DNA from: Arhodomonas aquaeolei DSM 8974
Lineage (GTDB): Bacteria; Pseudomonadota; Gammaproteobacteria; Nitrococcales; Nitrococcaceae
Assembly (NCBI RefSeq): GCF_000374645.1
Contig: NZ_KB894808.1
Span: forward strand, 1-64,000
Direction: 5' to 3'
Length of the DNA stretch: 64,000 nucleotides
Shown: in pieces, positions 3,938-35,047 of the stretch
How the letters are laid out: each line of letters starts with the position of its first letter
Position numbering within the stretch: position 1 is the stretch's first letter
The notes under the pieces: generated by a model
What the model was told of the DNA's origin: nothing
The model's input: the letters and a program-made list of their open reading frames with translations, nothing else
Database searches by the model: none
Translations under genes and position numbers: made by a program

Positions 3938-4151
3938 TGCTTACCCTCCTGCATCTGTAAGCCGGTGGGGAACCCGCACGCCGGGTGCGTGGGAAGGCGA
4001 CACACAGCGGGCGTGGTGCCCAGGATTTCAGTGTAGACGCTGGCCGGCGTTCGACAATCGGGCACCGCTGCCGCGTCCCGGGCGCGTCGACAGCACGCCC
4101 GGGTGTTGCTACGTTCAAAGACGTTGGCGCGAAACGGCGCGGGGAGACGGC

Positions 4152-5679: not shown

Positions 5680-5681
5680 GC

Positions 5682-6737
5682 ATGAGCGACGAGGCGGCAG
5701 CGGTTACACGGCAGCGGCGCCCCGCCGAGCGTATCCGCGCGGTGGTGCAGACCCGCGCCTTCCTGCTCGTGGCGGTGGTGGCGTTGTTCATCGTGCTGGT
5801 GGCGCTGGCGATCCACCAGGGGGTGGGTGCCTCGCGGCTCCTGTCCCTGGCTGCCTGGGGCGTGATGCTGGGCGGCATCATCGGTCTCGGCAGCATCGGG
5901 CTCACGCTGGTCTACGGCGTGCTCAAGTTCCCCAACTTCTCCCACGGCGCGCTGGTGACCTTCGGCGCGTACTTCACCTACGCGTTCATGGCCTGGCTGC
6001 CGGAGAGCGCGCCGCTGCGGCCGCTGTCCTTCGGCTGGACGTTCCCGGTGGCGCTGGTGCTGTCAATGCCGCTGGTGGGGCTGGTGGCGCTCGCGGTCGA
6101 CCGTGTGGTCTACCGCCGGCTGCGCCGCCAGAACGCCCACCTGGTGCTTTTCGCCATGGCCTCGCTGGCGATGGCGTTCTTCCTGCGCAGCGTGATCTAC
6201 ATCGTCTGGGGGCCGGACTTCCACTTCTTCTTCCCGGGCCGGGCGAATCCGGCGCTGGAGCTGCCGTTCAACATCCGTGTGCGTGCCGACCAGGTCTTCA
6301 TCCTGCTGCTGGCGCTGGCGATCATGGCCGGGCTCTACGTGCTGCTGGAGCGCACACGCATCGGCAAGGCCATGCGCGCGACCGCGGACAACCCCGAGCT
6401 CGCCCAGGTACGGGGCATCAACACCGAGCGGGTGATCGCCTGGACCTGGCTGCTCGGCGGCGCCCTCGCCGCCGCCGGCGGCACGATGTACGGGCTGTCC
6501 TCCCAGCTCCGCCCGGAGATGGGCTTCTGGCTGCTGCTGCCGATGTTCGCCGCGGCGATCATGGGCGGGATCGGCAATCCCTACGGCGCCCTCGTCGGGG
6601 CGCTGGTGATCGGTGTGACCCACCAGGTATCCACCGCCTTCCTCGATCCCACCTACGGGCCGGCGGTGGCCTTCGTGCTCATGGTGATCGTGCTGCTCGT
6701 TCGCCCCCAGGGCCTGTTCGGGCGCGAGGGAGGCTGA
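5682..6737 (+). CDS. livH: ABC transporter permease, LivH-like
   Basis: A 351-residue inner-membrane permease with about eight hydrophobic segments. GLTLVYGVLKFPNFSHGALVTFGAY (family motif, about residues 74-98) and the MRATADNPELAQVRGIN cytoplasmic loop are typical of LivH/BPD_transp_2. Two in-frame ATGs exist at 5676 and 5682; 5682 is chosen because the GGGGGG run at 5670-5675 then has a normal six-base spacing. The 5676 start would overlap the livF stop. Confidence 0.87.
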   Translation: MSDEAAAVTRQRRPAERIRAVVQTRAFLLVAVVALFIVLVALAIHQGVGASRLLSLAAWGVMLGGIIGLGSIGLTLVYGVLKFPNFSHGALVTFGAYFTYAFMAWLPESAPLRPLSFGWTFPVALVLSMPLVGLVALAVDRVVYRRLRRQNAHLVLFAMASLAMAFFLRSVIYIVWGPDFHFFFPGRANPALELPFNIRVRADQVFILLLALAIMAGLYVLLERTRIGKAMRATADNPELAQVRGINTERVIAWTWLLGGALAAAGGTMYGLSSQLRPEMGFWLLLPMFAAAIMGGIGNPYGALVGALVIGVTHQVSTAFLDPTYGPAVAFVLMVIVLLVRPQGLFGREGG

Positions 6738-6741
6738 GGCA

Positions 6742-7932
6742 ATGGAGACGCTGGTCCTGGTCAAGGCGATGCTGCTGTTCGTGCCCCTGGCGCTGGCTTT
6801 CGGACTGGTGCTGCCGGCACGGGCGTGGCGGCCGCTGGCGGCGGTGGTCGTCGGTGCGGTGGTGGCCCTCGCGGCCGCGGCCGGACTCTCGGCGGGGCTG
6901 CTCGCCTATGGGGTGTCCTTCGCGATCATGGGCTGCGTCTACGCGCTTCTGGCGCTGGGGCTCAACACCCAGTGGGGCTACACGGGCCACCTGAACTTCG
7001 GTGTCGCCGGATTCTTCGCCGTGGGTGCGTTCACCTCCGCGCTGGTGACCATCGAGGCCCCTACCGGGGTCGCCGCGCAGTACACGCAGATGGCGTTCGG
7101 GCTGAACATGCCCTTCCTGGTCGGCGTGCTCGCCGCGGCGGTGGTCTCCGGGGTGGTCGCGTTCCTGATCGCGGTGCCGGTGCTGCGGCTGCGCATGGAC
7201 TTCCTCGCGATCGCGACCATCGGCGTGGCGGAGATCATCCGGCTGATCTTCCAGAATGAGCGCTGGCTCGCCAATGGCCCGCAGCCGCTGCGCGGCATCC
7301 CCCAGCCCATGCACTGCCTCGTGGAGGCGAACGGCTGCGGCTGGGCCCCCGGCTGGCTGAACGGGGCCCTGTCCGTGCTCTCACCGCGGGATTACCCGCT
7401 GTTCTACCTGGTGATCATCGCGGTGTTCGTGGCGCTGGTGTACGTCGTCATCGAGCGGGCCTGCCGCTCGCCCTGGGGGCGGATGCTGCGCGCGGTGCGC
7501 GACGAGGAGTCCTCCGCGGCGATGAACGGCAAGCCCATCACCTACGTGCGCATCCAGTCCTTCGTGGTCGGCGCGGTGATCATGGGCATCGCCGGCGCGC
7601 TGTACGCGCACTACACGGTGACCATCGATTACAGCCACTTCCACGCCCTGTTCGCCACCTTTCTGGTGTGGGTGATGCTCATGCTCGGCGGCAGCGGCAA
7701 TAACCGCGGCGCGATCATCGGGGGATTCATCGTCTGGGGCGTTTGGAGCGGCACCGCCTTCCTCGCCGACGCCATCGAGCCGCTGCTGGCGTTGATCTCC
7801 GACGACCTGCCGCGGCGGGCCGCCTACTTCCGCTGGCTGCTGGTGGCGCTGCTGCTCGCCGGCATCGTGCTGTTCCGTCCGCAAGGGCTGCTGCGCGAGG
7901 AGAAGGTGGTCTCGCGCTATCTTCGGGACTGA
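6742..7932 (+). CDS. livM: ABC transporter permease, LivM-like
   Basis: A 396-residue permease starting four bases after livH. It has about nine or ten membrane segments, the GLNTQWGYTGHLNFGVAGFFA motif near residue 73, and the MDFLAIATIGVAEIIR and RMLRAVRDEESSAAMNGK segments that mark LivM. It forms the heteromeric channel with LivH. The C-terminal RPQGLLREE matches the end of LivH (RPQGLFGREGG), a common feature of the pair. Confidence 0.87.
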   Translation: METLVLVKAMLLFVPLALAFGLVLPARAWRPLAAVVVGAVVALAAAAGLSAGLLAYGVSFAIMGCVYALLALGLNTQWGYTGHLNFGVAGFFAVGAFTSALVTIEAPTGVAAQYTQMAFGLNMPFLVGVLAAAVVSGVVAFLIAVPVLRLRMDFLAIATIGVAEIIRLIFQNERWLANGPQPLRGIPQPMHCLVEANGCGWAPGWLNGALSVLSPRDYPLFYLVIIAVFVALVYVVIERACRSPWGRMLRAVRDEESSAAMNGKPITYVRIQSFVVGAVIMGIAGALYAHYTVTIDYSHFHALFATFLVWVMLMLGGSGNNRGAIIGGFIVWGVWSGTAFLADAIEPLLALISDDLPRRAAYFRWLLVALLLAGIVLFRPQGLLREEKVVSRYLRD

Positions 7933-19784: not shown

Positions 19785-19794
19785 GAAATGGTGG
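19785..19794. repeat. Candidate att core, left copy (GAAATGGTGG)
   Basis: Identical to 34685-34694, which includes the tmRNA 3' CCA end. The match is only 10 bp, so its assignment rests on position and on the nearby repeated GTTGCCCCCA. Confidence 0.5.
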
Positions 19795-19832: not shown

Positions 19833-20435
19833 CTACAGCTTGATGCCGAACCGCCGCGCCATGCCGGCCAGTGATTCCTCGACGAAGGCGTCGTGCTCGG
19901 CGGTGAGTCTTTCGAAGGTCCGCCAGTGCATGCCCTTGGGCTTGAGGCCGCTGCCGTTGAGGATACCAGGCTCCCAGCCTAGCCGCTCGCGTATTCGGTC
20001 GGCGCGGCGTGCTGCCCGATCGTCATCGGTTTCCCGCTGGCTGGGGTAGGCCAGACGGTAGCAGTGCCGGCAGGCGAAGATCGCACCGCCATAGAGGATG
20101 GCGACCCGCCGGCCGCAGCCGCGTGCCGGGCAGAGGAACCAGGGGCGGTGGCCGCCCAGATTGCATTCCGTCCAGTTCAGATAGACTGGGTAGCTTTCGT
20201 CCTTCCAGTCACTGCCGCCACTGCGGTGGCGATAGGTGAGAATCACCCGGTCGGGTTCGGTGCGCACCTGGATCGAGGCAACCACCTCGCCACGCCGTGA
20301 CCACTGCCAGCCGAAGGACTGGTGCGGGTCGAGCAGACCGTCCCGCCGCCAACGGCGCACGTCGATGGATCGGTAATCGTCTGTGGTGTCGCTGGCGCCG
20401 AAGTGCCAGCGCCGTCCGCTACCCATGCCGCCCAT
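19833..20435 (-). CDS. Uncharacterised island protein with a C4 zinc-finger-like segment
   Basis: A 200-residue protein. The ATG at 20435 has GGAGG five bases upstream; a GTG two codons earlier overlaps that site. CPARGCGRRVAIL and, 20 residues later, CRHC form a likely zinc-binding pair near residues 100-125. The N-terminus GSGRRWHFGAS and the Trp-rich centre carry no fold I can name. It is the last gene of the leftward island run; its role is unknown. Confidence 0.65.
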   Translation of the reverse strand: MGGMGSGRRWHFGASDTTDDYRSIDVRRWRRDGLLDPHQSFGWQWSRRGEVVASIQVRTEPDRVILTYRHRSGGSDWKDESYPVYLNWTECNLGGHRPWFLCPARGCGRRVAILYGGAIFACRHCYRLAYPSQRETDDDRAARRADRIRERLGWEPGILNGSGLKPKGMHWRTFERLTAEHDAFVEESLAGMARRFGIKL

Positions 20436-20472
20436 ATTCACCTCCGGATTTATCCGAAATCATTTGGCAAGT

Positions 20473-21124
20473 TCACCTTTTTGTCAGGGCTTCATCGTCG
20501 GCTGATCCGTCGTTGTCGCCGGGTTCGGTGTGCGGCAGATACCGCTGGCAATAACGGCGGTCGGTGTCCCACAGCCCCGCGATGGCTTCTGGCTCGCCCT
20601 TGGCGCAATGGCCCAGATGCGGATGGTCCGTGCGCCGGAAGTGGGTGCAGTCGTGGCAGCGGACGGCATGCGGGCGCGGTATCGGCCGGTTGGCTACCCG
20701 ATTCCAGCACCAGGGGGCAGCCCAGCACTTCGCCGGGGAACCACAGCCAGATCGGCCCGCAGTGCTTGCAGGTGGCCCGTTCGGTGTAGTGGGCGGGGCG
20801 CTTCCCCTCGTCCATCTCCCGGCGCTGCACCAGTGACCGGACAAAGGCGGCCAGGGTGTCGTTGGTGATCTCGCCCTTGAGCCAGTCCTCGATGTCTTCC
20901 GGTGCCAATGCGTCCCGCACTGCCGCCGGTGCGATGGGCAGGTCGCGACAGGCATCAGACAGTGCTTCCAGCAGCCTGGAAGCCGTTTCCTCGGCAACCG
21001 CTAACGCAGAATCCGCACTATCCGCAGAATTGCTCGGCATGGCGGTGTTCTGCGCATTGTGCGGATTGTGCGCATGGGGCTTGCCGGCCGCTTCAGCGAC
21101 ACCCAGCGTTTCCCGCCAGCTCAT
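20473..21124 (-). pseudogene. Zinc-ribbon island gene interrupted by a frameshift
   Basis: Starts at ATG 21124, overlapping the stop of the upstream gene (ATGA). The first part reads MSWRETLGVAEAAGKPH... through CKHCGPIWLWFPGEVLGCP. At a run of five G on the plus strand (20713-20717) the sensible reading moves to another frame, continuing WCWNRVANRPIPRP...CHDCTHF...GHCAKGEPEAIAGLWDTDRRYC to a stop at 20473. Removing one base from the run restores CxxC...CPWC zinc-ribbon spacing. Unshifted, the protein runs on in a nonsense frame to 20492. Real mutation, sequencing error and programmed slippage are all possible. Confidence 0.75.
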
Positions 21125-22644
21125 TGCCAGGCCCTCGCGATCTCTGGCCGCACCCTTACCGTGGGTGACGGCGGCCGGCCGGGGCCGTCTCGCGGCGGTT
21201 CGATCACTTCCACGTAGCCGCGCTCTTCCAGCGCATCCAGGGCGTCGCGCAGTTTCGAGACGCGGGGGAAGGTGCCGCGCAGGGCGTTGAAGGCTTCGCG
21301 CACGGTGAACCGCGCCAGCCGCCCGCGCTCGATCCAGTCCCAGACCAGCCGGGCGGCGGCGATGGTGGGATCGGCCCCCATCATGTCCAGCGCGGCCAGG
21401 CTGTGGCGGGTGATGACGGCCATGATCTCCAGGGCGTCGTTCATCGTTTCCGCCGTGATGGCTGCTTCCCAGGGCCTGCCGTGGGCGTGCCTGATCCCGT
21501 GCAGCACGCCGGCCAGTCGCGCGGCGGCCCCCGGTGCCTTGCCCGCCCAGTCGGTGAAGTGCTCCAGCTCCCGGCCGGGCTGCATCTGCACCTCGATGGC
21601 CTTGGCAAAATCGTGCCATTCCACCTGCGCTTCCTGGGACAGGCGCAGCAGGTGGGGGCGTTCCGTGCCCTGTTCGTCCATGGCCGGTTCCCAGTCCAGC
21701 ATGGCGATGATGCCGGCCGTGTAGGCATCGCGCACGCCCTCCGGCACCGGATCGGATTGCAGCGCACGAAAACCCAGCGGCGAGGGTGGCAGCAGGTAGA
21801 GAAACCGGCCCAGCAGGCCACGGCCGCGAAATCCCGGCTTGGCCGCCAGTCCCCGCAACACATCCGGCTGCGGGCTCAGACCGATGCTCAGGCGCGGGCT
21901 GCGCAGATAAACGGCTGGTCGTGAGCCCCGGTCCACGCGCTCCGGGTCGCCGCTGTGCGCCTTCAGCACCAGATCCAGATTGGGAATGCCGTTGGAATAG
22001 CGGCCTTGCAGCAGATCGAACACGCCGCCTTCCGACGACAGCCAGGCCATGCACTCGCCGTGCTCGGCCAGCAGGCTGCCCAGCCGTTCCGGCGTCGCGT
22101 CCGAGGTCCAGATCTGCGGCTGCATCGGAATGTCCGGCAGATCGGCTTCCAGGTCGGCCGCTTCAGCCGCCAGTTCCTTGGCCTTGTTGGCATCCTTCTC
22201 CCTGGCCGCCTTGCTGCGGGTCTCCTTGGCCCGGGCTTCCTGGGTCTTGCGCTCGCTGGTGATGCGCTTGATCTCCGGCTCCATGATCTCGGATTGATCC
22301 CGCTCCCACGCCACCAGCGGCGCGGTGGCGGCGGATTGCACGGCGCTCTTGCGGTTGCCGGGCGGCAAAGCCACCACCGCCCACAGATTGCAGGGCTCGA
22401 AGTAGCCGGGCTTCACCATCACACGCAGGCGACGCGCCGCTGCCGTGGCACAGGTGACCAGAATCATTCCGGCGGCCAGCTCCGGCGGTGTCTCGGTATC
22501 GGCGGCCAAGGCGCGGGCATAGTCCCCGGCCCAGCCAGGCAGGTGTCCCAGGTCGAGGCGGGGCAGGTTGGGCGCGTTCAGCGGGACCAGTGCCGGCCAG
22601 TCTTCCGGCGGCGGTGCGGCGGATTTCAGCAGGTCGGCGCTCAT
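21121..22644 (-). CDS. DUF3987 family protein (island replication-type helicase-like)
   Basis: A 507-residue protein starting at ATG 22644, which overlaps the previous stop. It has PPGNRKSAVQSAATAPLVAWE, a degenerate nucleotide-binding-like loop near residue 95, and a charged helical stretch (about 115-165). WTSDATPERLGSLLAEHGECMAWLSSEGG and later FRGRGLLGRFLYLLPPS are typical of DUF3987. A winged-helix-like tail (FTVREAFNALRGTFPRVSKLRDALDALEERGYV) ends it. Such proteins follow primase genes in P4-like islands and are presumed to act in element replication. Confidence 0.8.
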   Translation of the reverse strand: MSADLLKSAAPPPEDWPALVPLNAPNLPRLDLGHLPGWAGDYARALAADTETPPELAAGMILVTCATAAARRLRVMVKPGYFEPCNLWAVVALPPGNRKSAVQSAATAPLVAWERDQSEIMEPEIKRITSERKTQEARAKETRSKAAREKDANKAKELAAEAADLEADLPDIPMQPQIWTSDATPERLGSLLAEHGECMAWLSSEGGVFDLLQGRYSNGIPNLDLVLKAHSGDPERVDRGSRPAVYLRSPRLSIGLSPQPDVLRGLAAKPGFRGRGLLGRFLYLLPPSPLGFRALQSDPVPEGVRDAYTAGIIAMLDWEPAMDEQGTERPHLLRLSQEAQVEWHDFAKAIEVQMQPGRELEHFTDWAGKAPGAAARLAGVLHGIRHAHGRPWEAAITAETMNDALEIMAVITRHSLAALDMMGADPTIAAARLVWDWIERGRLARFTVREAFNALRGTFPRVSKLRDALDALEERGYVEVIEPPRDGPGRPPSPTVRVRPEIARAWQ

Positions 22645-23528
22645 GCCCCACCTCCCGCCAGCCACCGGGCCAGATCGTTGAAGTCGGTCAGACTCTCCGG
22701 TGCGTCCGCCGGCCACTGCGGCAGCGCCAGCAGCGCATCGGATGCGATGGCGGCGGCCTTTGCCTGGGTGGCTCCCGGATTGCCCGGCGTGCGCCGGTCA
22801 TCGTCACCGGCGATCACGATTTCGGCGGACTGCCAGCGGCGGCGCGCGGCCACGGCGACGGGTTCCAGATTGCCCGCGTCGATGGCGGCCAGCACCAGGG
22901 CGGCCGGGTCGTCCTCCGCGAGCGTGCGGCCCGTCGCCCAGCCTTCGCAGATGATGACGCGCCGGGCCTGTTCCTCGTCGCCGGCAACGGCAATGAAGCA
23001 GCCGCGCTTCCGGCCCCCGGAGAGCAGTCGCTTGCGCCCGTCAGGCGCGATGAATTGCAGGCTGCTGATCGAGCCTTCGAAGCTCGTCACCGGCAGTACC
23101 AGGCACCCGTGGTAAAGCCTGGCGTTATGAGGCGCGATGCCTTTGGCGACCAGATAGCCGTGGTGTCTTGGCGCGGCGGGCGCGGCGTCCCAGATCCTGC
23201 GTGCCCGATTGGCCGCCTCTGCATATCGGTCCTGCCGCGAGCGTTCGGCTTGCAATCTCGCCGCCTTGATTTGGCGCGACAGCGCAGCCTGCGCCTGCGG
23301 CGAGCCTGGCCAGCCCTGCCTGGAGAACCAGGTGCGCGAGAGCCCCGAGGACCAGTCGCCAAAGCAGCCACCTTGCCCGTCGTCGAACAGCAGGCACCAG
23401 CCGGCCCGGTTACTCGGGCCTTTGTCGGCGCCGGGAAAGCGATGCAGCGTGCCTGGCTCGATTGCGTCCGGCGGTTCCAGCCCCGTGGAGCGGATCGCGT
23501 CGCGGAATCGGAGGAGCGCATCAGTCAT
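22641..23528 (-). CDS. Toprim-domain, primase-like island protein
   Basis: A 295-residue protein. The N-terminal half has the WCLLFDDGQGGCFGDWSSG segment common before Toprim domains in phage-type primases. The Toprim part shows VIICEGWATGRTL (Glu) and IVIAGDDDRRTPGNPGA (Asp cluster). No zinc-finger or RNA-polymerase domain is visible, so it may need a partner. The start at 23528 has GGGAGGG upstream. A second in-frame start at 23708, with its own GGGGGGA site 15 bases after the alpA stop, would add 60 residues including a hydrophobic segment VKAAVVTLAVWGWFPLSW. Confidence 0.75.
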   Translation of the reverse strand: MTDALLRFRDAIRSTGLEPPDAIEPGTLHRFPGADKGPSNRAGWCLLFDDGQGGCFGDWSSGLSRTWFSRQGWPGSPQAQAALSRQIKAARLQAERSRQDRYAEAANRARRIWDAAPAAPRHHGYLVAKGIAPHNARLYHGCLVLPVTSFEGSISSLQFIAPDGRKRLLSGGRKRGCFIAVAGDEEQARRVIICEGWATGRTLAEDDPAALVLAAIDAGNLEPVAVAARRRWQSAEIVIAGDDDRRTPGNPGATQAKAAAIASDALLALPQWPADAPESLTDFNDLARWLAGGGA

Positions 23529-24066: not shown

Positions 24067-24834
24067 CTACCAGCTCAGCGGGGATTTGGCCGGAGCAGGA
24101 TCGTCTTTCAGGAGCTGTTTCAGGCGCGAAACGGAGATGCCTTCTTCCTCGGCGACGGTCTTCAGGAATGCCCGAACGCCTTTCGCCCTCAACGCTTGTA
24201 CGCGCTTTTTGAGCCGCTCTCTGCGTTGTGCGGCCGATTCCACGTCGCCAGCGCCCGCGACAGGTTGATCCACCAGCCGGGTCAAGGCGCGCCTGTCCAC
24301 GCTGAGTGCGCCGTTCTCCAGCGCGAGCACCTCCGCCAACGCAACGGAATGACCGGCCAGCTCCAGGGTGAGCAAGTTTCCGGCCCGCATCACCACATGG
24401 CTGGAATGTTTGGCACCCTTGAGCAGGCCAAGCTCCCACCGGCCGCTGGATGTGTCGTCATGCCCCGAGCGGTGCAGACCAAGCAATCGCGCGAGCAAAT
24501 CGGCAATCGACTCGCCGGAAGCCTGCCATTGTTCCAGTCGGGAGACCGGCACGGACACGCGGTTGATGTCGCTGCGCTTGTCGCAGACGATGAAGGCTCC
24601 CACAGCATGCCCCGCACCAGTCGGAGTATGTACGGGCATGACGCATTCACGCTCGCAGCCGGGGCAGATCGTGCTGACCGCGGGCCGCGCCCTGGTAATC
24701 ACTCCTTCCGACTGCAAGGCCGTAACCGCTTCGGCCGGCCAGTCCGCCAGCTCATCGGCGCCGACTAGTACCCGTTCGCCGTGTGACGCCGCGATCCGGT
24801 CGAGCAGCTCGGTAAGCACGGCCTGCTGCGTCAT
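24067..24834 (-). CDS. Uncharacterised protein with a zinc-knuckle and a C-terminal HTH, partner of the 406-residue gene
   Basis: A 255-residue protein I do not recognise. The ATG overlaps the stop of the upstream gene (ATGA), so the two are translated together. CPGCEREC near residue 57 is a likely zinc-binding turn. The last 45 residues are highly basic, then FLKTVAEEEGISVSRLKQLLKDD reads like a helix-turn-helix. The middle (LAGHSVALAEVLALENGALSVDRRALTRLVDQ) is helical. It may be a DNA-binding accessory or regulator of the restriction cargo, or an ordinary island gene ahead of alpA. Confidence 0.6.
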   Translation of the reverse strand: MTQQAVLTELLDRIAASHGERVLVGADELADWPAEAVTALQSEGVITRARPAVSTICPGCERECVMPVHTPTGAGHAVGAFIVCDKRSDINRVSVPVSRLEQWQASGESIADLLARLLGLHRSGHDDTSSGRWELGLLKGAKHSSHVVMRAGNLLTLELAGHSVALAEVLALENGALSVDRRALTRLVDQPVAGAGDVESAAQRRERLKKRVQALRAKGVRAFLKTVAEEEGISVSRLKQLLKDDPAPAKSPLSW

Positions 24835-26051
24835 GCCTCAGAGGCTTCCTCGGCCGGTTCAGCTTCCGCCGGCTTCTTGGGCTCGATGCCGGAGGCTTCC
24901 AGCATCTCGCGCAGTTTGATGCCCACTTCGTCGTACTTGAGGGAACAGGAGTTGGGATAGGTAAGGCGGATGGGCACCGTCCTGGGCGGCTTGTCCGGGT
25001 CGGTGACGACGGACGCTGCGATCTCCACCTGGGTCACGTTGTACAGGTGCATCGGCAGGGACTTGCCGAGCCGGTCCAGCAGGTCATAGACGGCATCGGG
25101 ATTACGGGAAGTGTCCGCCTCCAGGGTGATGCGCTCGCCCTTTGTGGCCCGCGAGGACAGCCGCAGTTTGCGAACGACCACATCCTCGATGCCGCTGCCC
25201 ACGTCATAGGTGAAATCGAATGCCCGCTTGCCGAGCAGGTCCAGGTTGTAGACCCGCTCATCCTTCGGATCAGGCGGCAGCTCGTCCAGCTTCAGAATCG
25301 TGGTAGCGAACATGCCCTGGAGCGGCTCCACGGCCTTGCGGGGGCCGCGAAAGTTCAGGTCCAGCGTCCCTTCCTTCTGCGAGTAGACGAAGATCACCTC
25401 GAAGGCCGGGTTGTGCGGCCGGCGGTCGAACTCGCCATCCACCCACTCGATGCTCTGCTGGGAATAGTCCTCCGGGTAGGCGAAGAAGTAGTCCAGCTCG
25501 CCCCGGCGGAAGGGCTCCACGATGCAGTTGTTGCCCCGGCCCTCGGTGCGGTGGAAGTAGTTGCGTATCTGGGTCGCCAGTTGCCGGATGCTGTCGTCGT
25601 CAACCGCGGCGGGCCGGTGCCCCATGTTCTTGCGCTTGCGCCAGTAGGGCAGCGTGTCGGCGTGGTAGAAGCGCGTGGCGCCCTTCCAGCACTCGGGATG
25701 GTCCAGGTAGGTGACCATGGCGCGGTGGTAGTGGTTGGGCAGGGCTGACAGCGCCTCGATGAACTCGCTCAGGGCCTCGGGGTCGGACTGCTTCTGCCAT
25801 TCCGCCTCGTCGATGATGGCGCGGAAGCCCTTCTCGCAGCTCAACTCGAAGATGTCCTGAAACTCGGCGTCCATCGGCTTTCGCTGGTCCTCCGGCAGTG
25901 CCAGCCAGGCCTCGAACAGTTCGTCCGGCTTGGTCTCCTTCAGCGCGGAAAAGTCCAGATCGCCGAACAGGCCCCGTTCCGCGAAATACCGCGCCAGCAG
26001 GGCGTTCGGGACCTGCCGGAAGAAGCTTCGGGTTGAGTAGTGTCGGGCCAT
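24831..26051 (-). CDS. Uncharacterised 406-residue protein divergent from the Mod/Res genes
   Basis: Full-length frame from ATG 26051 with GGGGAGGGAGG just upstream and a TATAAT -10 at 26089-26094. No catalytic motif is evident. The N-terminal half is helical, acidic and aromatic (FFRQVPNALLARYFAERGLF; HRAMVTYLDHPECWKGATRFYHADTLPYWRKRKNMG). The C-terminal half is beta-rich (FEVIFVYSQKEGTLDLNFRG; VTQVEIAASVVTDPDKPPRTVPIRLTYP). It ends in an Ala/Glu-rich tail. It shares an operator region with the RHH-mod-res genes, so it is probably part of the same module. Confidence 0.6.
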   Translation of the reverse strand: MARHYSTRSFFRQVPNALLARYFAERGLFGDLDFSALKETKPDELFEAWLALPEDQRKPMDAEFQDIFELSCEKGFRAIIDEAEWQKQSDPEALSEFIEALSALPNHYHRAMVTYLDHPECWKGATRFYHADTLPYWRKRKNMGHRPAAVDDDSIRQLATQIRNYFHRTEGRGNNCIVEPFRRGELDYFFAYPEDYSQQSIEWVDGEFDRRPHNPAFEVIFVYSQKEGTLDLNFRGPRKAVEPLQGMFATTILKLDELPPDPKDERVYNLDLLGKRAFDFTYDVGSGIEDVVVRKLRLSSRATKGERITLEADTSRNPDAVYDLLDRLGKSLPMHLYNVTQVEIAASVVTDPDKPPRTVPIRLTYPNSCSLKYDEVGIKLREMLEASGIEPKKPAEAEPAEEASEA

Positions 26052-26088
26052 GCCTCCCTCCCCAGCCGATTTGCCAGAATCTCCTTGG

Positions 26089-26116
26089 ATTATACGGGAC
26101 GATGCAGTACATTACA
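26089..26116 (-). promoter_or_regulatory. Leftward promoter of the 406-residue gene
   Basis: A perfect TATAAT (minus strand, 26089-26094) with TGTAAT 16 bases upstream (26111-26116) as a weak -35. The -35 lies inside the repeated CAGTACATT operator, so an RHH protein bound there would block this promoter. Confidence 0.65.
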
Positions 26117-26123
26117 GTACATT
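26105..26123. promoter_or_regulatory. Tandem operator CAGTACATT x2
   Basis: CAGTACATT at 26105-26113 and again at 26115-26123, a 10-base period, i.e. one helical turn. Ribbon-helix-helix proteins bind such tandem repeats. It sits between the leftward 406-residue gene and the rightward RHH gene at 26149. Confidence 0.6.
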
Positions 26124-26148
26124 TGCAGCCACCCTGCGAAGGACCCCG

Positions 26149-26358
26149 ATGGCCACCACCAAGACCGCGACCGTGACCTTCCGCATTGACCCAGCTGTGA
26201 AGGAGGCGCTTCGTACCGCTGCCACCCGCGAGCATCGCTCTATCGCCAACATGGTGGAGGTGCTGATCCGGGATTATTGCGACAAGAACAACATCTCCAT
26301 CGAGGAGGGAGAGACCGTCGCCGGCCTCCCTCCTTCCCGTGGCCGAAAAGGCAAGTAG
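26149..26358 (+). CDS. Ribbon-helix-helix (CopG/Arc-type) regulator
   Basis: A 69-residue protein: the beta strand ATVTFRIDP is followed by helix VKEALRTAATREHRSIANMVEVLIRDYCDKN, the RHH fold. AAGGA lies before ATG 26149. The basic tail SRGRKGK may also contact DNA. It precedes the mod gene by about 100 bases and most likely binds the repeated CAGTACATT just upstream, controlling both directions. It could alternatively be an antitoxin, but no toxin gene follows. Confidence 0.8.
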   Translation: MATTKTATVTFRIDPAVKEALRTAATREHRSIANMVEVLIRDYCDKNNISIEEGETVAGLPPSRGRKGK

Positions 26359-26456
26359 CCGCCGGCCATGTCGATGAGCAAGGTTGCTACGCCCCGAATC
26401 GGATCAGGCCGTAACCCAAACCCGGACATGAATCTTAGAGAGTGGAACCCGTGCCG

Positions 26457-29400
26457 ATGACAAATCGAGAAAAATTTCAAGCACTGTTGCGCGAGCTTTT
26501 CCAGTTCGACTGTGCGGACCTGGACTTCGGCATCTACCGCATCATGAATTACAAGCGGGACGTGATCGAGAAGTTCATCTCGACCGACCTGCCCGAGCTG
26601 ATTGGTGAAGACCTGAACCGTAATGCCTTGGCCGACCAATCACAAGCCGCAGCGGAGCTTGCTGAAACCGCCGAACAGATTACCGAAACGCTGGGCAAGG
26701 AGGCCCTGGATGCCGATGGCAATCTCGCCGAGTCTTATCACGGTACTCCGCTGGGGAAGAAGTACCTGAGCTTGCAGGCGAAGGCAACCGGTGGCCGTGG
26801 GCGCGAGGCCCTGGAGGCCACCATCTTCAACCATCTGTACACTTTCTTTAGCCGTTATTACCAGGACGGCGACTTCATCTCCAAGCGCCGCTACTCTAAG
26901 CGGCAGAAGTACGCCATCCCGTACAACGGTGAGGAAGTCTATCTTCACTGGGCCAACCACGACCAGTACTACGTCAAGACCGCCGAACATTTCCACGATT
27001 ACACCTTCACGTCACAAGGCGTGACCGTGCAATTCAAGCTTACTGCCGCCAACGTCGAGCAGAACAATGTCAAGGGTGAGAAACGGCTTTTCCTGCCCCG
27101 CGTCAAGGAGCTCGACTGGCGGGAGAAGGCAAACGAGCTGATCATTCCCTTCGAGTACCGGCCGCTGACCGAGCAGGAGAAGGTGACCTACGGGAAGAAG
27201 AACCAGCAGGACAAGCTCATAGCGGAGGCCTCTGAGGCCATTCCAAGGAACCTGAAAAAAGCGGATAAGGCCCTCGCCGCCGTTATCGCGGAGCGTCGCA
27301 AGGACGGCGATAACCAGCCGGTGACGTTCCTGGAGCATCACCTGCGGCAATACACGCGCAAGAACACTTCCGACTTTTTCATCCACAAGGACTTGAAGGG
27401 GTTTCTCTCGCGTGAGCTGGACTTCTACCTGAAGAATGAAGTGCTGAACCTGGACGAGATGGAAGCCGCTGGCGAGGGCCGCTCCGAAGGCTGGTTTCAG
27501 GTCCTGCGGGTGATCAAGGCTGTCGGCAGCCGAATCAGCGACTTCCTCGATCAAATCGAGTCCTTCCAGAAGATGCTGTGGGAGAAACGGAAGTTCATCA
27601 CTGAGACGCAGTACTGCATCACCGTCGGCACCATCGACGAGAGCTTCTATCCCGAGATCGCTGAGTGCGATGCTCAATGGGACGAGTGGAGGGAGCTGTT
27701 CCACATTGACGAGGAGCAGACCGACCTGTTTACAAGTGGTAAGAGCAAGGCAGAGCGCCGGGTGGCGTTCCTGAAGGCACATCCGACGCTCTTGATCGAC
27801 ACCTCCCACTTCGCCCCGAGGGTTGTCGATGCCCTTCTCGCCAGTTTCGGTGACCTCGAGGAAATGACGGATGGCGAGCTCTTTCACAGCGAGAACTGGC
27901 AAGCCCTAAATTTACTTTCTGAACTGTACTCCGAGGGAGTTAGCTGCATCTACATCGATCCGCCGTTCAACTCCCCTTCCACCCGCATTCTATACAAAAA
28001 TGACTATCTTCATTCCAGTTGGCTCGCATTAATGAGCAACAGAATCGATTTGTCCCGCCGCTTTCTCGCCGACGGGGTATATGTTGTTGCTATCGACGAG
28101 AATGAACAGGAGCGACTGGGATTATTGATCAGGAGTGGCTGGCTGGGAGCCTACGAGATTGTCTGTGTCGCCGTGCGACATAATCCCCGTGGGATACAGG
28201 GTGCGAATTTCTCGCACTGTCATGAATATGCCTACTTCATGTATCCCTCAGATTCCGAACGCTACATTGGAGAGCGCAAGCTCGATGAAGTGGATGTACG
28301 GAACTTACGCGACAGTGGCCTAGAATCCGATCGTACTGACGCTCGGAACTGCTTCTATCCCATCATCGTGAAGGACGAGGAGATTGTGGGGTTTGGGGAT
28401 GTTCCGCCTGATGAATACCATCCCGCCGGTGTTAATGAAAGAGACGACGGGGGCCTTATTCGGGTCTGGCCGATCGACACAAGTGGTAACGAGAAGAAGT
28501 GGCGATATGCAAGGCAATCTGTCGAACGTATTCTTCCGAAACTGCAAGTGCGGGAAACCCGTGGGAAGCATGAAATATACTTCGCCAAAGATACGGGGAC
28601 TGTGCGGACACTATGGGATGACGCTCAGTTCGACGCATCTGAGTACGGAACCAAGCTACTCCAACACATTTTTGGCAGAAAGGACTTGGACTTCTCGTAT
28701 CCGAAGTCTTTGTATACGCTGATCGAAACTCTGCGCGTATCGCTTCGCCCGTCGCCACGCTCTACTGTCTTGGATTATTTCGGTGGTTCGGGGACGACCG
28801 CTCATGCAACTATCGGTCTGAATCGGGAGGATGGCGGTAATCGCAAGTTCATCCTCGTTGAAATGGGAGACTACTTTCAAACCGTTCTGTTGCCTCGCAT
28901 CAAGAAGATTGCATTTGCACCAGAATGGAAGGATGGGAAGCCAGCGCGTAGTGCAACGGCGGAAGAAGCCGAGCGTGGCCCTCGAATCATTAAGTATTGT
29001 CGTGTCGAGAGTTTTGAGGACACGTTGAACAACATCGCCTTCGACGAGGCGTTCGATCAGGGCACTCTACAGTTTGAGGATTACCTGCTCAAGTACATGC
29101 TCAAGTGGGAGACACGGACGAGCGAAACGCTCCTGAACATCGAGAAGCTCGCCAAGCCCTTCAGCTACAAGCTCACCCTGGCCAAGGGCGACGAGACTAT
29201 CGACAAGACAGTCGATATACCCGAGACGTTCAATTACCTGCTCGGCCTGCATGTCAGCACACGCAAAGTGTACGACGATGATGGGCGTCGATACCTGGTC
29301 TATCACGGCCGCATTGACCATCGACGCATCGCGGTGATCTGGCGTGAGACCGAGGGCTGGCAAAAGAAGGATCTGGAACGCGACAAGAAATTCGTCGTTG

Positions 29401-29519
29401 AGCAGAAGCTCGCCGAGGGTGTGGATGAAGTGTTCGTCAATGGCGACTCGTTCATTCCCAACGCCAAGGCCCTTGAGCCGGTGTTCAAGGCCCGGATGTT
29501 CGCGCCGGTGGAGGCGTAA
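26457..29519 (+). CDS. Mod-like DNA adenine methyltransferase (type III-like R-M)
   Basis: A 1020-residue beta-class N6-adenine methyltransferase. The catalytic motif IDPPFN is near residue 500 and the SAM-binding YFGGSGTTAHAT near 775, with the target-recognition region between, the beta-class order. The N-terminal 480 residues (helical, charged) and C-terminal 200 residues are additional domains, making it far longer than ordinary Mod proteins of 550-650 residues. An in-frame GTG at 26442 could be used instead; neither start has a strong ribosome site. The stop is followed after three bases by res. Bases 27900-28760 are clearly richer in A+T than the rest. Confidence 0.87.
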   Translation: MTNREKFQALLRELFQFDCADLDFGIYRIMNYKRDVIEKFISTDLPELIGEDLNRNALADQSQAAAELAETAEQITETLGKEALDADGNLAESYHGTPLGKKYLSLQAKATGGRGREALEATIFNHLYTFFSRYYQDGDFISKRRYSKRQKYAIPYNGEEVYLHWANHDQYYVKTAEHFHDYTFTSQGVTVQFKLTAANVEQNNVKGEKRLFLPRVKELDWREKANELIIPFEYRPLTEQEKVTYGKKNQQDKLIAEASEAIPRNLKKADKALAAVIAERRKDGDNQPVTFLEHHLRQYTRKNTSDFFIHKDLKGFLSRELDFYLKNEVLNLDEMEAAGEGRSEGWFQVLRVIKAVGSRISDFLDQIESFQKMLWEKRKFITETQYCITVGTIDESFYPEIAECDAQWDEWRELFHIDEEQTDLFTSGKSKAERRVAFLKAHPTLLIDTSHFAPRVVDALLASFGDLEEMTDGELFHSENWQALNLLSELYSEGVSCIYIDPPFNSPSTRILYKNDYLHSSWLALMSNRIDLSRRFLADGVYVVAIDENEQERLGLLIRSGWLGAYEIVCVAVRHNPRGIQGANFSHCHEYAYFMYPSDSERYIGERKLDEVDVRNLRDSGLESDRTDARNCFYPIIVKDEEIVGFGDVPPDEYHPAGVNERDDGGLIRVWPIDTSGNEKKWRYARQSVERILPKLQVRETRGKHEIYFAKDTGTVRTLWDDAQFDASEYGTKLLQHIFGRKDLDFSYPKSLYTLIETLRVSLRPSPRSTVLDYFGGSGTTAHATIGLNREDGGNRKFILVEMGDYFQTVLLPRIKKIAFAPEWKDGKPARSATAEEAERGPRIIKYCRVESFEDTLNNIAFDEAFDQGTLQFEDYLLKYMLKWETRTSETLLNIEKLAKPFSYKLTLAKGDETIDKTVDIPETFNYLLGLHVSTRKVYDDDGRRYLVYHGRIDHRRIAVIWRETEGWQKKDLERDKKFVVEQKLAEGVDEVFVNGDSFIPNAKALEPVFKARMFAPVEA

Positions 29520-29522
29520 TCC

Positions 29523-32500
29523 ATGCCCGGAGCACGAAACGGCAAACCGGAGTACGTGAAGCTGGAGCAACGGCTGGTTCTGTTGACCTGGCTGAACAGC
29601 CTGTTCGGCTATGACAGCAACCGTGATCTTTTGGCTGACCTGCGCGAGGCGGGCGAGGGTTTTGACGCTAGCGGTCGCAGTTACGTGTACCACCGGCTCA
29701 TCGCGCGCGGCGACAAGGTGAAAATCACCCCCGCAGACTTGGCACGCTACGACGACAACATTCGCGAGCATCTTGAAGCGATGAACGCGCGTCGGCCGGA
29801 GCGGATCACGTTGCGGTACTTCCAGCACCTGGCATTGCTGTACACGGAAGTTTTCCTCGATGGCTATTTCAATCATCCGGGGAAGCTCCTGCGGTGGCTG
29901 AACGGCTTCGTGGCGAAGCGCAATGCCTCCAAGAGTGCTGGGGAAGCAAAGGACGCCAAGTTCAGTGAGACCGACCTGAAGAAGCTGGCTTACTGGATGG
30001 CCACCGGCAGTGGCAAGACGCTGATCATGCATATCAACTATCGGCAGTTCCTGCGATACAACAACTTGCCGCTGGACAATATCCTGCTGATCACGCCGAA
30101 CGCGGGCCTGAGCGAGCAGCACATCGAGGAGATGACGGCTTCCAATATTCCCTGCCGCCGGTTTGATCTGAATGAAAGCGGCCTTGGGATTTCCGAGCCC
30201 GATGCCGTGCGCGTCATCGAGATCACGAAGCTGGTGGAAGAGAAGCGCGGCGGTGGACAGAGCGTGCCGGTCGAGGCCTTCGAGGGCAACAACCTGATCT
30301 TCGTCGATGAAGGCCACAAGGGTTCGGGCGGCGAGGCGTGGCGCAGCTTTCGCGACGCGCTGGGGCAGACCGGATTTACCTTCGAGTACAGCGCGACCTT
30401 CGGTCAGGCCCTGACGGCGGCTCGGAACGACAAGCTGACCGAGGAGTACGGTAAGGGCATCGTATTCGACTACTCCTACCGGTACTTCCACGGCGACGGA
30501 TATGGGAAGGACTTCCGTATCCTCAACCTGAAGGAAGAAGCGGCCGAGGACAAAACCGAGACGCTGCTGTTGGGCAACCTGCTGTCGTTCTACGAGCAGC
30601 AGCGGGTTTTCGAGGAAGGCGGCGCGGACTTGCGGCCTTACAACCTGGAAAAGCCGCTCTGGGTGTTCGTCGGCAGCAGCGTGAATGCTGTCTACACCGA
30701 GAACAAGCAAAAACGCAGCGACGTGCTGACCGTGGCCCGCTTCCTGCATCACCTGCTGGAGAACAAACAAGGCTGGGCGGTCAAGGCGATCAAGCGGCTA
30801 CTTGGCGGGAAGACCGGGCTGGTGGACCCGGACGGGCAAGACATTTTTGCCGAGAAGTTCCAGTACCTGAAGGATGCTCGTATCGACGCGGAGACGGCCT
30901 ACCAGGAGCTGCTGGAAAAAGTCCTGCACGCGCCTACCGGCGGCGGCCTGCATTTGTGCGACCTGCGGGGCAGCCCCGGCGAGCTGGGGCTCAAGGCCAG
31001 TGGAGGGGACGAATATTTCGGTCTGATCTACATCGGCGATACCAGCGCCTTTAAGAAGCTGGTGGAGGCGGATGATGCTGGCATCACAGTCGAGGAGGAT
31101 GCCATTGCCAATTCGCTCTTTGAGGGCATCAACGAGCCGGAGACGAGCGTCGAAATATTGATTGGCGCGAAGAAGTTCATGGAGGGGTGGAACTCCTGGC
31201 GCGTCTCCAATATGGGGTTACTCAACATTGGCCGGAAGGAAGGCTCGGAAATTATCCAGCTCTTCGGACGTGGCGTGCGACTACGGGGCAAGGACTTCAC
31301 GCTGAAGCGAAGCTCCGCGCTCGACGGCAGCCACCCTGAGCATCTGCCGGTGCTGGAGACGCTCAACATCTTTGCCGTCCGCGCCAATTACATGTCCCAG
31401 TTCCGGGAGTACCTGGAGAAAGAGGGCGTCGAGACAGAAGGCGATGTCGAGCTATCACTGCCGATCCGTACGAACGATGACTTTCTAGGCCAAGGTCTGG
31501 TCGTACCGCGCATCCCGGACGACCGAAGCTTCGCCGACGAAGCCGACGTGCTTCTGGATGTCGATCCGGCGATTCGTGTGCGCGTCGATATGTCACTCAA
31601 GGTGCAGACGTTCGAAAGTGGGGCGGACGGCTTTACCGCAACCGCGGTGAAGGCCGGTCGCGAGAGGGCCATTCCCGACGCGAGTCTGGGACTTGTGGAC
31701 TGGGAGCGCGTCTACCTGGAGCTCTTGGAGTACAAGGAGCGGAAAGGCATGCACAACCTGGCCATCCGCCCCGATTTGCCGCGGGCGATCTTTGATAAGA
31801 AGGAGCCATCCCGCCTTTATAGCGTTGTTGCTGATGACACCGTCGTTAAGCCGGACTCCTTCGCCGGAACCGCATTCCTTCACGAAGCCGTCCTGACGGT
31901 CCTGCGGAAGTACACGGACAAGTTCTATCGCATGCAGCAAGAGCGATGGGATTCGGAGAATATGGTCTACAAGGCGCTGGGTGTCGAGGACTCGAACTTC
32001 CAGGACTACATCGTCAAGGTCTCCAGAGGTGAAGCGACTCTCATCGGCGCCATTCAGAAGCTGATCGACGAAGCCGATAGCATCTACCGCCAGGATTTGA
32101 CCGACTTGCCGACGATCCACTTCGACCGTCACCTGTATCAGCCGCTGTTGATCGAGCGAGGCGATAAGGTGCGAAGCGATCCGCCGGGGCTCAAAGAGAG
32201 CGAGCGGCAGTTTGTCGGTGATCTGCGTGCTTACTGCCGCGCGGAACGGGACGGCGCACTGGCAGATGCCGAAGTGTACCTGCTACGTAATCTGAGCCGA
32301 GGCAAGGGGATCGGCTTCTTCGAGACGCGAGGCTTCTACCCCGACTTTATCCTCTGGATCAAGACTGCCCATCAGCAACGCATCGTATTCGTGGAGCCCC
32401 ACGGGATGGTGCACGCCGAAGCCTATCAGCACGACGAGAAGGCGCGATTACATGAATCGCTCCCGGAACTGGCCAAGGCCATGTGCAAGCGGACGAAGAT

Positions 32501-32684
32501 GACCGATGTCGTCCTGGATTCGTTCATTGTTTCCGCGACACCGTACGACGATCTGCGCACCAGGTATGACGACGGAAGCTGGGATCGGGATAAGTTCGCG
32601 TCGGCTCATATTCTGTTTCCGATACGGGACAGCGAGTACGACTACATCAGACGAATCGTCAAAGGATGCTCGAAGGATAGTTGA
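29523..32684 (+). CDS. Res-like DEAD/DEAH helicase-nuclease (type III-like R-M)
   Basis: A 1053-residue superfamily 2 ATPase. Walker A MATGSGKT is near residue 160, the Walker B variant FVDEGHKG near 261, and motif VI LFGRGVRLRGKDF near 581. The C-terminal GFYPDFILWI...RIVFVEPHGM (about 940-960) resembles the PD-(D/E)xK nuclease of Res subunits, with the usual lysine replaced by His. It starts three bases after mod, so both are co-transcribed. It should cleave or translocate on DNA lacking Mod's methylation. Confidence 0.85.
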   Translation: MPGARNGKPEYVKLEQRLVLLTWLNSLFGYDSNRDLLADLREAGEGFDASGRSYVYHRLIARGDKVKITPADLARYDDNIREHLEAMNARRPERITLRYFQHLALLYTEVFLDGYFNHPGKLLRWLNGFVAKRNASKSAGEAKDAKFSETDLKKLAYWMATGSGKTLIMHINYRQFLRYNNLPLDNILLITPNAGLSEQHIEEMTASNIPCRRFDLNESGLGISEPDAVRVIEITKLVEEKRGGGQSVPVEAFEGNNLIFVDEGHKGSGGEAWRSFRDALGQTGFTFEYSATFGQALTAARNDKLTEEYGKGIVFDYSYRYFHGDGYGKDFRILNLKEEAAEDKTETLLLGNLLSFYEQQRVFEEGGADLRPYNLEKPLWVFVGSSVNAVYTENKQKRSDVLTVARFLHHLLENKQGWAVKAIKRLLGGKTGLVDPDGQDIFAEKFQYLKDARIDAETAYQELLEKVLHAPTGGGLHLCDLRGSPGELGLKASGGDEYFGLIYIGDTSAFKKLVEADDAGITVEEDAIANSLFEGINEPETSVEILIGAKKFMEGWNSWRVSNMGLLNIGRKEGSEIIQLFGRGVRLRGKDFTLKRSSALDGSHPEHLPVLETLNIFAVRANYMSQFREYLEKEGVETEGDVELSLPIRTNDDFLGQGLVVPRIPDDRSFADEADVLLDVDPAIRVRVDMSLKVQTFESGADGFTATAVKAGRERAIPDASLGLVDWERVYLELLEYKERKGMHNLAIRPDLPRAIFDKKEPSRLYSVVADDTVVKPDSFAGTAFLHEAVLTVLRKYTDKFYRMQQERWDSENMVYKALGVEDSNFQDYIVKVSRGEATLIGAIQKLIDEADSIYRQDLTDLPTIHFDRHLYQPLLIERGDKVRSDPPGLKESERQFVGDLRAYCRAERDGALADAEVYLLRNLSRGKGIGFFETRGFYPDFILWIKTAHQQRIVFVEPHGMVHAEAYQHDEKARLHESLPELAKAMCKRTKMTDVVLDSFIVSATPYDDLRTRYDDGSWDRDKFASAHILFPIRDSEYDYIRRIVKGCSKDS

Positions 32685-33308: not shown

Positions 33309-34526
33309 TCAGGCGCTTTGGTTAATCGGGATGACTACGGCGCCGGCTTTCAGCTTGTCGAGATAATCCGCCCATTCCTGCATCATCTTGCGCCGTTCCG
33401 GCAGGTGGGCCGTGCGGTTGTAGGCGCGGCCGTTGGGGTCGCGCACGGCGTGGGCGAGCTGGTGCTCGATGAAGTCGGGCCGGAAGCCCAGTACTTCATC
33501 CAGGATGGTGCGCGCCATCGCCCGGAAGCCGTGGCCGCTCATTTCTTCCTTGCTGATCCCCATGCGCCGCATGGCGGCGAGGATGGCGTTGTCGCTCATA
33601 GGCTTGTCGCCCTTGGGGTTTCGGGCGCTGGGGAAAACATACCGGCCATTGCCTGTGAGAGGATGCAGCTCGCGGAGGATGTCCACGGCCTGGCGGGAGA
33701 GGGGAACGATATGCGGCGTGTTGGTCTTCTTGACCGTATAGCGCCATTCCGCCGCTTCCAGATCGATGTCGTCCCATTCGGCATGGCGCAGTTCGCCGGG
33801 GCGGACGAATACCAGCGGCGCCAGGCGCAGGGCGCAACGCACGGGGAGGGTGCCTTCATACCCATCCAAGGCGCGCAACACCTCGGACACTTTCTTGGGC
33901 TCCGTGACGGAGGCGAAATGCGTTCCCTTGACCGGCGGTAACGCGCCGCGCAGATCGCCGGAGGGGTCACGTTCGGCCCGGCCGGTCGCCACGGCATAGC
34001 GGAACACCTGGCCGCAATTGCCCAGGGCACGATGCGCCGTCTCCAGGGCGCCGCGCTGTTCAATGCGCCGGATCACTTCCAGCAGTTGCGGGGCGGTGAT
34101 GTCGGCAATGGGTTTACCGCCGAGCCAGGGGAAGATGTCGCGCTCCAGGCGGCGGATGATCCGATCGCCGTGATTGGCCGACCAGTTGGGGGAGTGCTTG
34201 GCGTACCATTCGCGGGCGACCGCCTCAAAGCTATTCGCCGCCCGCTCCACCTTCGCGGCCCTGGTGGCCTTGCGGTTCTCGCTGGGGTCGATGTCATTGG
34301 CCAGAAGCTTACGCGCCTCGTCCCGCCGGTCGCGGGCATCCTTCAGGGATACATCGGGATAGACACCCAGGGAGAGCCGCTTTTCCTTGCCCCCATATCG
34401 GTACTTCAGCCGCCACCACTTGCCCCCGCTGGGGGCAACTTCCAGATACAGCCCGCCACCGTCAAAGAGCTTCCGGGCCTTATCGCCGGGTTTGGCGTTA
34501 CGGATCGCGGTATCGGTCAGCGACAT
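33309..34526 (-). CDS. P4-type tyrosine integrase
   Basis: A 405-residue site-specific recombinase. The N-terminal DUF4102 arm-binding domain reads LTDTAIRNAKPGDKARKLFDGGGLYLEV...SLGVYPDVSLKDAR. The catalytic domain shows Arg in VRPGELRHAEWD, HGFRAMA (H-x-x-R), HQLAHAV and the nucleophile Tyr in YNRTAHLPERR. It is read away from tmRNA, starting 163 bases from it, the usual arrangement for islands inserted at ssrA. Should catalyse integration at the tmRNA 3' end. Confidence 0.95.
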   Translation of the reverse strand: MSLTDTAIRNAKPGDKARKLFDGGGLYLEVAPSGGKWWRLKYRYGGKEKRLSLGVYPDVSLKDARDRRDEARKLLANDIDPSENRKATRAAKVERAANSFEAVAREWYAKHSPNWSANHGDRIIRRLERDIFPWLGGKPIADITAPQLLEVIRRIEQRGALETAHRALGNCGQVFRYAVATGRAERDPSGDLRGALPPVKGTHFASVTEPKKVSEVLRALDGYEGTLPVRCALRLAPLVFVRPGELRHAEWDDIDLEAAEWRYTVKKTNTPHIVPLSRQAVDILRELHPLTGNGRYVFPSARNPKGDKPMSDNAILAAMRRMGISKEEMSGHGFRAMARTILDEVLGFRPDFIEHQLAHAVRDPNGRAYNRTAHLPERRKMMQEWADYLDKLKAGAVVIPINQSA

Positions 34527-34684: not shown

Positions 34685-34694
34685 GAAATGGTGG
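34685..34694. repeat. Candidate att core, right copy (GAAATGGTGG) at the ssrA 3' end
   Basis: Overlaps the last six bases of the tmRNA gene, so integration would leave tmRNA intact. The left partner is at 19785-19794. Confidence 0.55.
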
Positions 34695-35047
34695 AGGCGG
34701 CGGGAATCGAACCCGCGTCCGCGGGACCTCCGCCCCAGGGTCTACATGCTTAGATCCGTCTATTATTTTTAGCCAGCTGCCACCCGACGGACAGGGTGTG
34801 CAGTCGGCGATCCCGTCAAGGTTTCGCGCAACGGATCCGGGCGGTCCGAGGCGCTATCCCGTGTGCTATGCCGGTCGAACATCGGCCACGGGAGACCGGA
34901 TGCCGACCGCTCGCGGTTATTTAGGCCGCGAGGGCGTAGTTGTCGTCGTTGGCAACTATCTTTGCTGCCACATGTTTTACGAGGTTGAGTGACGTCCTCG
35001 GCATGCACCTGAGGTTTTGCGACCCGCGTCGAAGCCAAGTCGCCCCC
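34689..35047 (-). ncRNA. ssrA: Transfer-messenger RNA (tmRNA)
   Basis: A 359-nt gene. The 5' end GGGGGCGACTTGGCTTCGACG and 3' end GGTTCGATTCCCGCCGCCTC plus CACCA form the tRNA-like part, with a seven-pair acceptor stem containing one G-U. The tag frame on the minus strand at 34953-34921 encodes ANDDNYALAA followed by TAA. It rescues stalled ribosomes together with SmpB, whose gene lies just upstream. The 3' end doubles as the island attachment site and remains intact. Confidence 0.97.

Follow-up and report, generated by a model that had tools for sequence, protein, structure and literature searches.

Two genes in a genomic island of Arhodomonas aquaeolei DSM 8974, which we call u406 and u255, are shown by homology to form a separate module: as a pair, they are related to a gene pair that stands beside the repressors of temperate phages. 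The whole explanation that we favor, and consider rather likely, is that they make up a phage or island control module separate from the type III restriction-modification (R-M) enzyme encoded next to them. Structure prediction gives this module a probable Rex/RdgC-like fold, and in our best reading the pair serves neither as an effector nor as a specificity subunit. By profiles and motifs the R-M genes are of an ordinary kind; what had not been described is u406-u255 as a module and its tie to phage immunity regions.

A five-gene locus in a tmRNA-integrated island

The DNA analyzed (the window) comprises 64,000 nt, positions 1 to 64,000 of the forward strand of A. aquaeolei contig NZ_KB894808.1. 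Five genes lie at 24,067-32,684, all with open reading frames: u406 and u255 on the (-) strand and, divergent from them, genes for a ribbon-helix-helix (RHH) regulator, Mod and Res on the (+) strand. The features of the island are:

19785..19794 (+), weak candidate attL, GAAATGGTGG, identical to a 10-mer at the ssrA 3' end (34685-34694)
19833..20441 (-), o19833, conserved island backbone gene at the far, outer end (202 aa)
21121..22716 (-), DUF3987 helicase-like island replication gene, with relatives in loci L189, L190, L068 and L002
22641..23987 (-), Toprim_3 primase-like island replication gene
24067..24834 (-), u255, zinc-cysteine protein with a C-terminal helix-turn-helix (HTH); gene 2 of the pair
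24831..26051 (-), u406, phrog_37634; N-terminal helical domain and a predicted RdgC/RexA/CENP-N-L-like fold; gene 1 of the pair
26105..26122 (+), candidate RHH operator with tandem CAGTACAT repeats, unique in the 3.96-Mb genome
26149..26358 (+), Arc/CopG-like RHH regulator; 26149 is the probable start
26457..29519 (+), Mod, type III N6-adenine methyltransferase with beta-class motif order
29523..32684 (+), Res, type III restriction subunit, by PADLOC and motifs
33309..34526 (-), tyrosine integrase of the island
34689..35047 (-), ssrA (tmRNA), the integration site

The original prediction had placed the five genes in this order inside an ssrA island, and the open frames, the integrase and the tmRNA bear it out. 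The left island border is approximate, since the attL match extends over 10 bp only. Phage-inducible satellites (PICI and P4-like) are characterized by an integrase, a regulator, replication genes and a helper-dependent packaging module; of these, an integrase and primase/helicase genes are present here. GC content falls to 0.52-0.61 over Mod-Res. PADLOC, applied to ten island proteins, returned R-M components and weak helicase and methyltransferase cross-hits only, with no BREX, DISARM or Dnd signature genes, as had been predicted from the sequence. Weak Pfam matches to Molybdop_Fe4S4, AAA_16 and Vif fell under the cut-off and were disregarded. Matches to o19833 turned up in 16 of the 369 gammaproteobacterial genomes surveyed.

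u406 and u255 form a conserved pair beside diverse cargo

The two genes overlap by 4 bp (ATGA, 24831-24834), which makes translational coupling probable. Neither protein has a significant match in Pfam, NCBIfam or PADLOC, and the conserved pair is undescribed in all three. u406 matches phrog_37634, a family of unknown function, with an E-value of 4e-21 over 367 residues (residues 6-372 on 5-385 of 416). In u255, C57, C60, C64 and C84 are invariant across 11 homologues, and the structural model ends in an HTH tail of three helices (201-217, 223-231 and 235-242); the zinc turn and HTH-like tail proposed earlier are thus both recovered.

One scan of genome contigs, together with two surveys of whole genomes, yielded 12 close-clade loci in which u406 is whole or is frameshifted or stopped. 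u255 was found in 4 of 369 gammaproteobacterial genomes, solely where u406 is present. At 8 of the 11 loci with readable flanks u406 adjoins R-M genes, which are of type III in the window and L004, type I in L006, L007, L024 and L067, and type ISP in L002 and L068; the other three (L069, L025 and L005) have no R-M in view. In L002, L004, L006 and L068 the pair lies directly downstream of the R-M genes on the same strand. Six u406 remnants also lie near or adjoin R-M genes, of PstI-like type II (L008/L033), type III (L009) and type I (L026, L027, L028 and L085). Loci and remnants together span Pseudomonadota, deltaproteobacteria and Acidobacteriota. The remnants in L008, L027, L028, L026 and L085 are N-terminal pieces. 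In L005 u406 carries a stop (~10608) and in L007 a frameshift (~10766); both copies are still highly conserved, and the interruptions are either decay or sequencing errors. The twelfth locus, L003, has a cut flank; downstream of u406-u255 it encodes a NACHT protein of 1343 aa (3658-7689), with a weak PADLOC match to PDC-M54A in its N-terminal part only.

The cargo changes between closely related copies of the pair. An Ectothiorhodospira u406 is 92-95% identical to that of the window and is accompanied by a type I rather than a type III system, and supported neighbors in the u406 tree have unlike cargo: the window (type III) and L007 (type I), L003 (NACHT) and L004 (type III), L068 (ISP) and L069 (none). 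Because tree-neighboring copies carry different cargo, the pair is not part of any given R-M enzyme.

Searches with o19833 and with an 850-aa replication protein of sister islands as queries found six islands that share backbone genes and have no pair: L188 and L189 with type I R-M, L190 with metal-efflux-like genes, L193, L220, and the decayed L221. By this gene-content comparison the pair is dispensable in islands. R-M or methylation cargo is frequent with the pair (8/11 islands) and without it (3/6), a non-significant difference (Fisher P=0.6) from small, hand-tallied counts, too few to judge whether the pair prefers R-M islands. The ~850-aa island replication proteins form a family, present in L024 (6292-8835), L004, L006, L067, L069 and L220, with nearly no Pfam match (weak RepB_primase).

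A second branch of the pair lies in phage immunity regions

Queries with u406 or its close clade gave no matches in plasmids, viral contigs or phage records; the phage branch surfaced only with a profile built from the whole-genome hits. This profile revealed a second u406-family clade in prophage-like elements and, in one scan, at least 177 viral contigs. Its member u390 aligns with u406 over 365 columns at an hhalign probability of 99.9%, and the branch matches phrog_37634 with E-values of 1e-69 to 1e-87. In 79 of 80 viral loci the u406 homologue is followed by a partner gene, p. Its product, ~330 aa long, shares a homologous core with u255 (hhalign 93.8%, E 1.7e-7) and ends in a segment unlike the u255 C-terminal end. 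The four zinc cysteines characterize the island clade; p does not conserve them. As far as could be found, the R-M-island clade of phrog_37634 and its conserved partner are previously undescribed.

Gene order puts the phage pair in an immunity-region position. It is often found between a serine recombinase and replication genes (helicase, nuclease, primase), either divergent from genes for an HTH protein and an ImmA-type protease or behind an S24 repressor. Across the 80 viral loci, on partial contigs, a helicase accompanies it in 55, a repressor HTH in 43 and ImmA in 42. No R-M adjoining the pair was found in this branch. In L030-L032, reading frames on the strand opposite the phage gene were rejected as spurious. 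In L071 (4382-6590) and ~40 viral loci, the phage-type pair has beside it a recurrent cluster of three genes, in which a serine recombinase gene stands between genes for proteins of 160 and 140 aa.

u406 probably belongs to the RdgC/RexA fold class

We modeled u406 from 43 sequences (pLDDT 81.5, pTM 0.58), obtaining an N-terminal helical domain followed by alpha-beta domains. Its best structural match (VIA) is RdgC (2owl; Z 8.0, rmsd 5.7, 219 aligned), covering model residues ~130-394, followed by four kinetochore proteins, CENP-N, CENP-L, Chl4 and Iml3, at Z 6-7.9. A Z of 8 is a level that unrelated folds can reach. The top match in the viral library BFVD is a 'Recombination-associated protein' (prob 0.94), and Foldseek gave no match at E<0.001. 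RexA itself is not among the listed structural chains, and its absence has no bearing on RexA likeness. At the sequence level, u406 showed no Pfam RdgC match at E<=1 and only 0.1% with RdgC in hhalign; against RexA, using a profile of only two sequences, the hhalign probability was 0.3%. u406 is also acidic, with a net charge of -16. On the model, u406 probably belongs to the RdgC/RexA/CENP-N-L fold class; the match is borderline, RdgC or RexA sequence similarity is not detected and the protein is acidic, so this fold is probable rather than demonstrated. For u255 the fold search gave generic HTH matches only (Z about 5), resembling Noc/Spo0J/KorB and sigma region 4 about equally.

RdgC, IML3-CHL4 and RexA share one fold class, and lambda RexA is a dimer that binds DNA nonspecifically and biases the switch between lysis and lysogeny (PMC11077077; PMC4080450). 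Lambda RexA/RexB is, like the pair in much of the phage branch, a two-gene module beside the repressor in an immunity region, and the predicted u406 structure suggests a probable shared RdgC-type fold with RexA. The two systems differ in several respects. RexA falls in phrog_12654 and u406 in phrog_37634, with no detected sequence similarity; RexB is a membrane protein, whereas the partner here is a soluble HTH protein (maximum hydropathy of u255, 1.58, versus 2.39 for RexB; no membrane segment in u255 or p by hydropathy); and RexA stands next to CI on the lambda map, whereas the island pair neighbors RHH and R-M genes, with no CI-type repressor seen in the island. RdgC (PF04381), although the best structural match of the u406 model, is a separate gene elsewhere in this genome (G000:C12), and u406 differs from it in having a conserved partner and, at its N-terminus, an additional helical domain.

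An RHH-led slot accepts unrelated R-M systems

The RHH gene most likely starts at ATG 26149, giving a 69-aa protein, because its homologues begin at that position; the listed start at 26050 would run through the candidate operator. This operator, CAGTACATTACAGTACAT at 26105-26122, lies 26 bp upstream of the RHH start. With up to three mismatches allowed (<=3), 0.10 occurrences of the pattern are expected in the window, and it is unique in the 3.96-Mb genome, which agrees with the operator region that the original prediction had the divergent genes share. The pattern recurs at L008/L033 and L189 and is degenerate at L007, L220 and L024. The exact 18-bp operator had 20 matches in viral contigs, none with an RHH homologue, and these were taken as chance.

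RHH homologues 52-72% identical to that of the window stand immediately upstream of R-M or methylation-linked genes in L007, L024, L027, L033, L189, L220 and the plasmid L087, irrespective of R-M type. From gene order, the R-M cassette is shown to be an interchangeable slot, often led by RHH; in this island design, a single RHH-led slot takes R-M of unrelated types. L087 (2-12081 of CP013100.1), a mobilizable Candidatus Tenderia plasmid, has a phage-type u390-p pair; ~3.3 kb away, an RHH gene heads a DUF499/DUF1156-methylase system, so the slot accepts DUF499/DUF1156 systems too. In L220 (8901-17171), an island integrated at tmRNA, a QueC-like gene occupies the place of u406, and RHH is followed by an SNF2/NOV_C helicase and a DUF1156 methylase.

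RHH and its candidate operator look like R-M cassette regulation, and we infer that RHH controls R-M expression. C-protein-regulated type II systems likewise have a gene for a small DNA-binding regulator ahead of the R-M genes, preceded by a repeat operator. The C proteins belong to the HTH class, whereas the regulator here is of the RHH type and leads types I, II and III as well as DUF1156 systems. RHH regulators that act on repeat operators are described for toxin-antitoxin operons (PMC3874152).

Proposed role of the pair and alternatives

In our preferred reading, the island consists of o19833, the primase/helicase genes, u255-u406, the operator, RHH, a methylation-based defense cassette (here type III) and the integrase. 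u406, with the RdgC/RexA/IML3-CHL4 fold, would bind DNA, and u255 would be the partner that supplies sequence specificity through its HTH and zinc turn. Jointly, they would target the control region and the replication start of the element that carries them, much as lambda RexA biases the switch of its own phage, and may add Rex-like exclusion or dampen RecA/SOS-driven induction. RHH would bind the 26105-26122 repeats and set the expression of RHH-Mod-Res, probably affecting the divergent u406 promoter too, and this control would prevent over-expression of restriction on entry. Against this explanation stand the borderline structural match (Z 8 at rmsd 5.7), a charge of -16 that is atypical of a nonspecific DNA binder, the absence of a CI-type repressor from view in this island, and the dispensability of the pair in related islands.

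The original prediction had instead made the two genes effectors, specificity factors or regulators of this Mod/Res pair. Membership in that pair as effectors or specificity factors is not supported, and under the refuting condition set by the prediction itself a role specific to type III fails: type III occurs in only 2 of the 11 readable loci, types I or ISP in six, and three have no R-M in view, while in the phage branch no R-M was found next to the pair. The idea of an undescribed module survives insofar as a conserved pair does stand beside R-M in unrelated bacteria; it is not bound to this Mod/Res. The fallback offered there, that a pair found mostly without Mod/Res would be ordinary island genes, is too weak a description for a module that is conserved across phages and islands and has a probable DNA-binding fold. 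A broader version, in which u406 and u255 are accessory parts of R-M of any type (a restriction-triggered effector, or a modulator of specificity or activity), draws on the 8 of 11 readable loci adjoining types I, ISP and III, on the six remnants near types I, II and III, and on the four loci where the pair directly follows R-M genes on one strand. We consider it quite improbable: the phage branch has the pair without adjoining R-M, R-M occurs without the pair in L188 and L189 and the pair without R-M in L069 and L025, the island family as a whole gives no significant enrichment (P=0.6), and a single conserved protein would need to work with enzymes that are unrelated.

A tentative possibility is a module for origin binding or partition, with u255 on the origin, u406 as loader or clamp, and the neighboring primase/helicase acting next. 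Three different primase/helicase modules lie on the u255 side of the pair in islands, the phage pair heads the arm toward the helicase, nuclease and primase genes, and the u255 HTH resembles Noc/Spo0J/KorB and, to about the same degree, sigma region 4. These HTH matches are generic, however, and L189 and L220 combine similar replication genes with unrelated genes in the place of the pair, so that the pair is not essential for replication. We think it unlikely that the pair is an independent Rex-like anti-phage exclusion module, a second cargo beside R-M. The Rex-like fold class, the position beside repressors in prophages, the defense cargo of this island family, and the other small gene sets that the slot holds elsewhere (such as the QueC-like gene of L220) would fit such a role, but u255 is no RexB-like membrane partner by hydropathy (1.58 versus 2.39) and the pair has no PADLOC match.

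Returning to the control module that we favor, it is conceivable, at a level well short of probable, that it represents a second, RexB-free Rex-like lineage. An RdgC/RexA-fold protein and an HTH partner, zinc-bearing in islands, would tune the phage lysogeny switch, and islands would have adopted the pair beside R-M of several types, coupling restriction (through DNA breaks and SOS) to element control or phage exclusion. For phrog_37634, until now a widespread phage family of unknown function in at least 177 viral contigs, the results add a partner conserved with it, a fold class that it probably shares with RexA, RdgC and the kinetochore proteins CENP-N/L, and R-M islands as a second habitat; they thereby point to a concrete function that can be tested.

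Mod and Res match ordinary type III families

Judged by profile matches and motifs, the Mod-Res pair is an ordinary one of type III, in keeping with the type III-like assignment made earlier. Mod matches PADLOC MTase_III (4.5e-178; type III set PDLC03646/PDLC03654) and Pfam N6_N4_Mtase (7.6e-14), and Res matches REase_III (5.2e-146). Both align along most of their length, with methyltransferase and helicase motifs intact: DPPF and then FGGSGTT in Mod, GSGKT and DEGH in Res. Mod most likely begins at ATG 26457, giving 1020 aa. It had been called unusually long; this is normal for its own subfamily, since the PADLOC type III model is 1057 aa long for Mod (1154 aa for Res). The locus departs from canonical type III systems in its long-Mod subfamily, in the RHH gene at its head, in the neighboring u406 and u255, which lie outside the type III family, and in the Res nuclease motif (~residues 947-965), which reads PD...EPH rather than PD...ExK and is shared with relatives in L004 and L187. 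One viral contig, with no u406 or u255 within the fetched stretch, bears the same Mod-Res at 60-70% identity.
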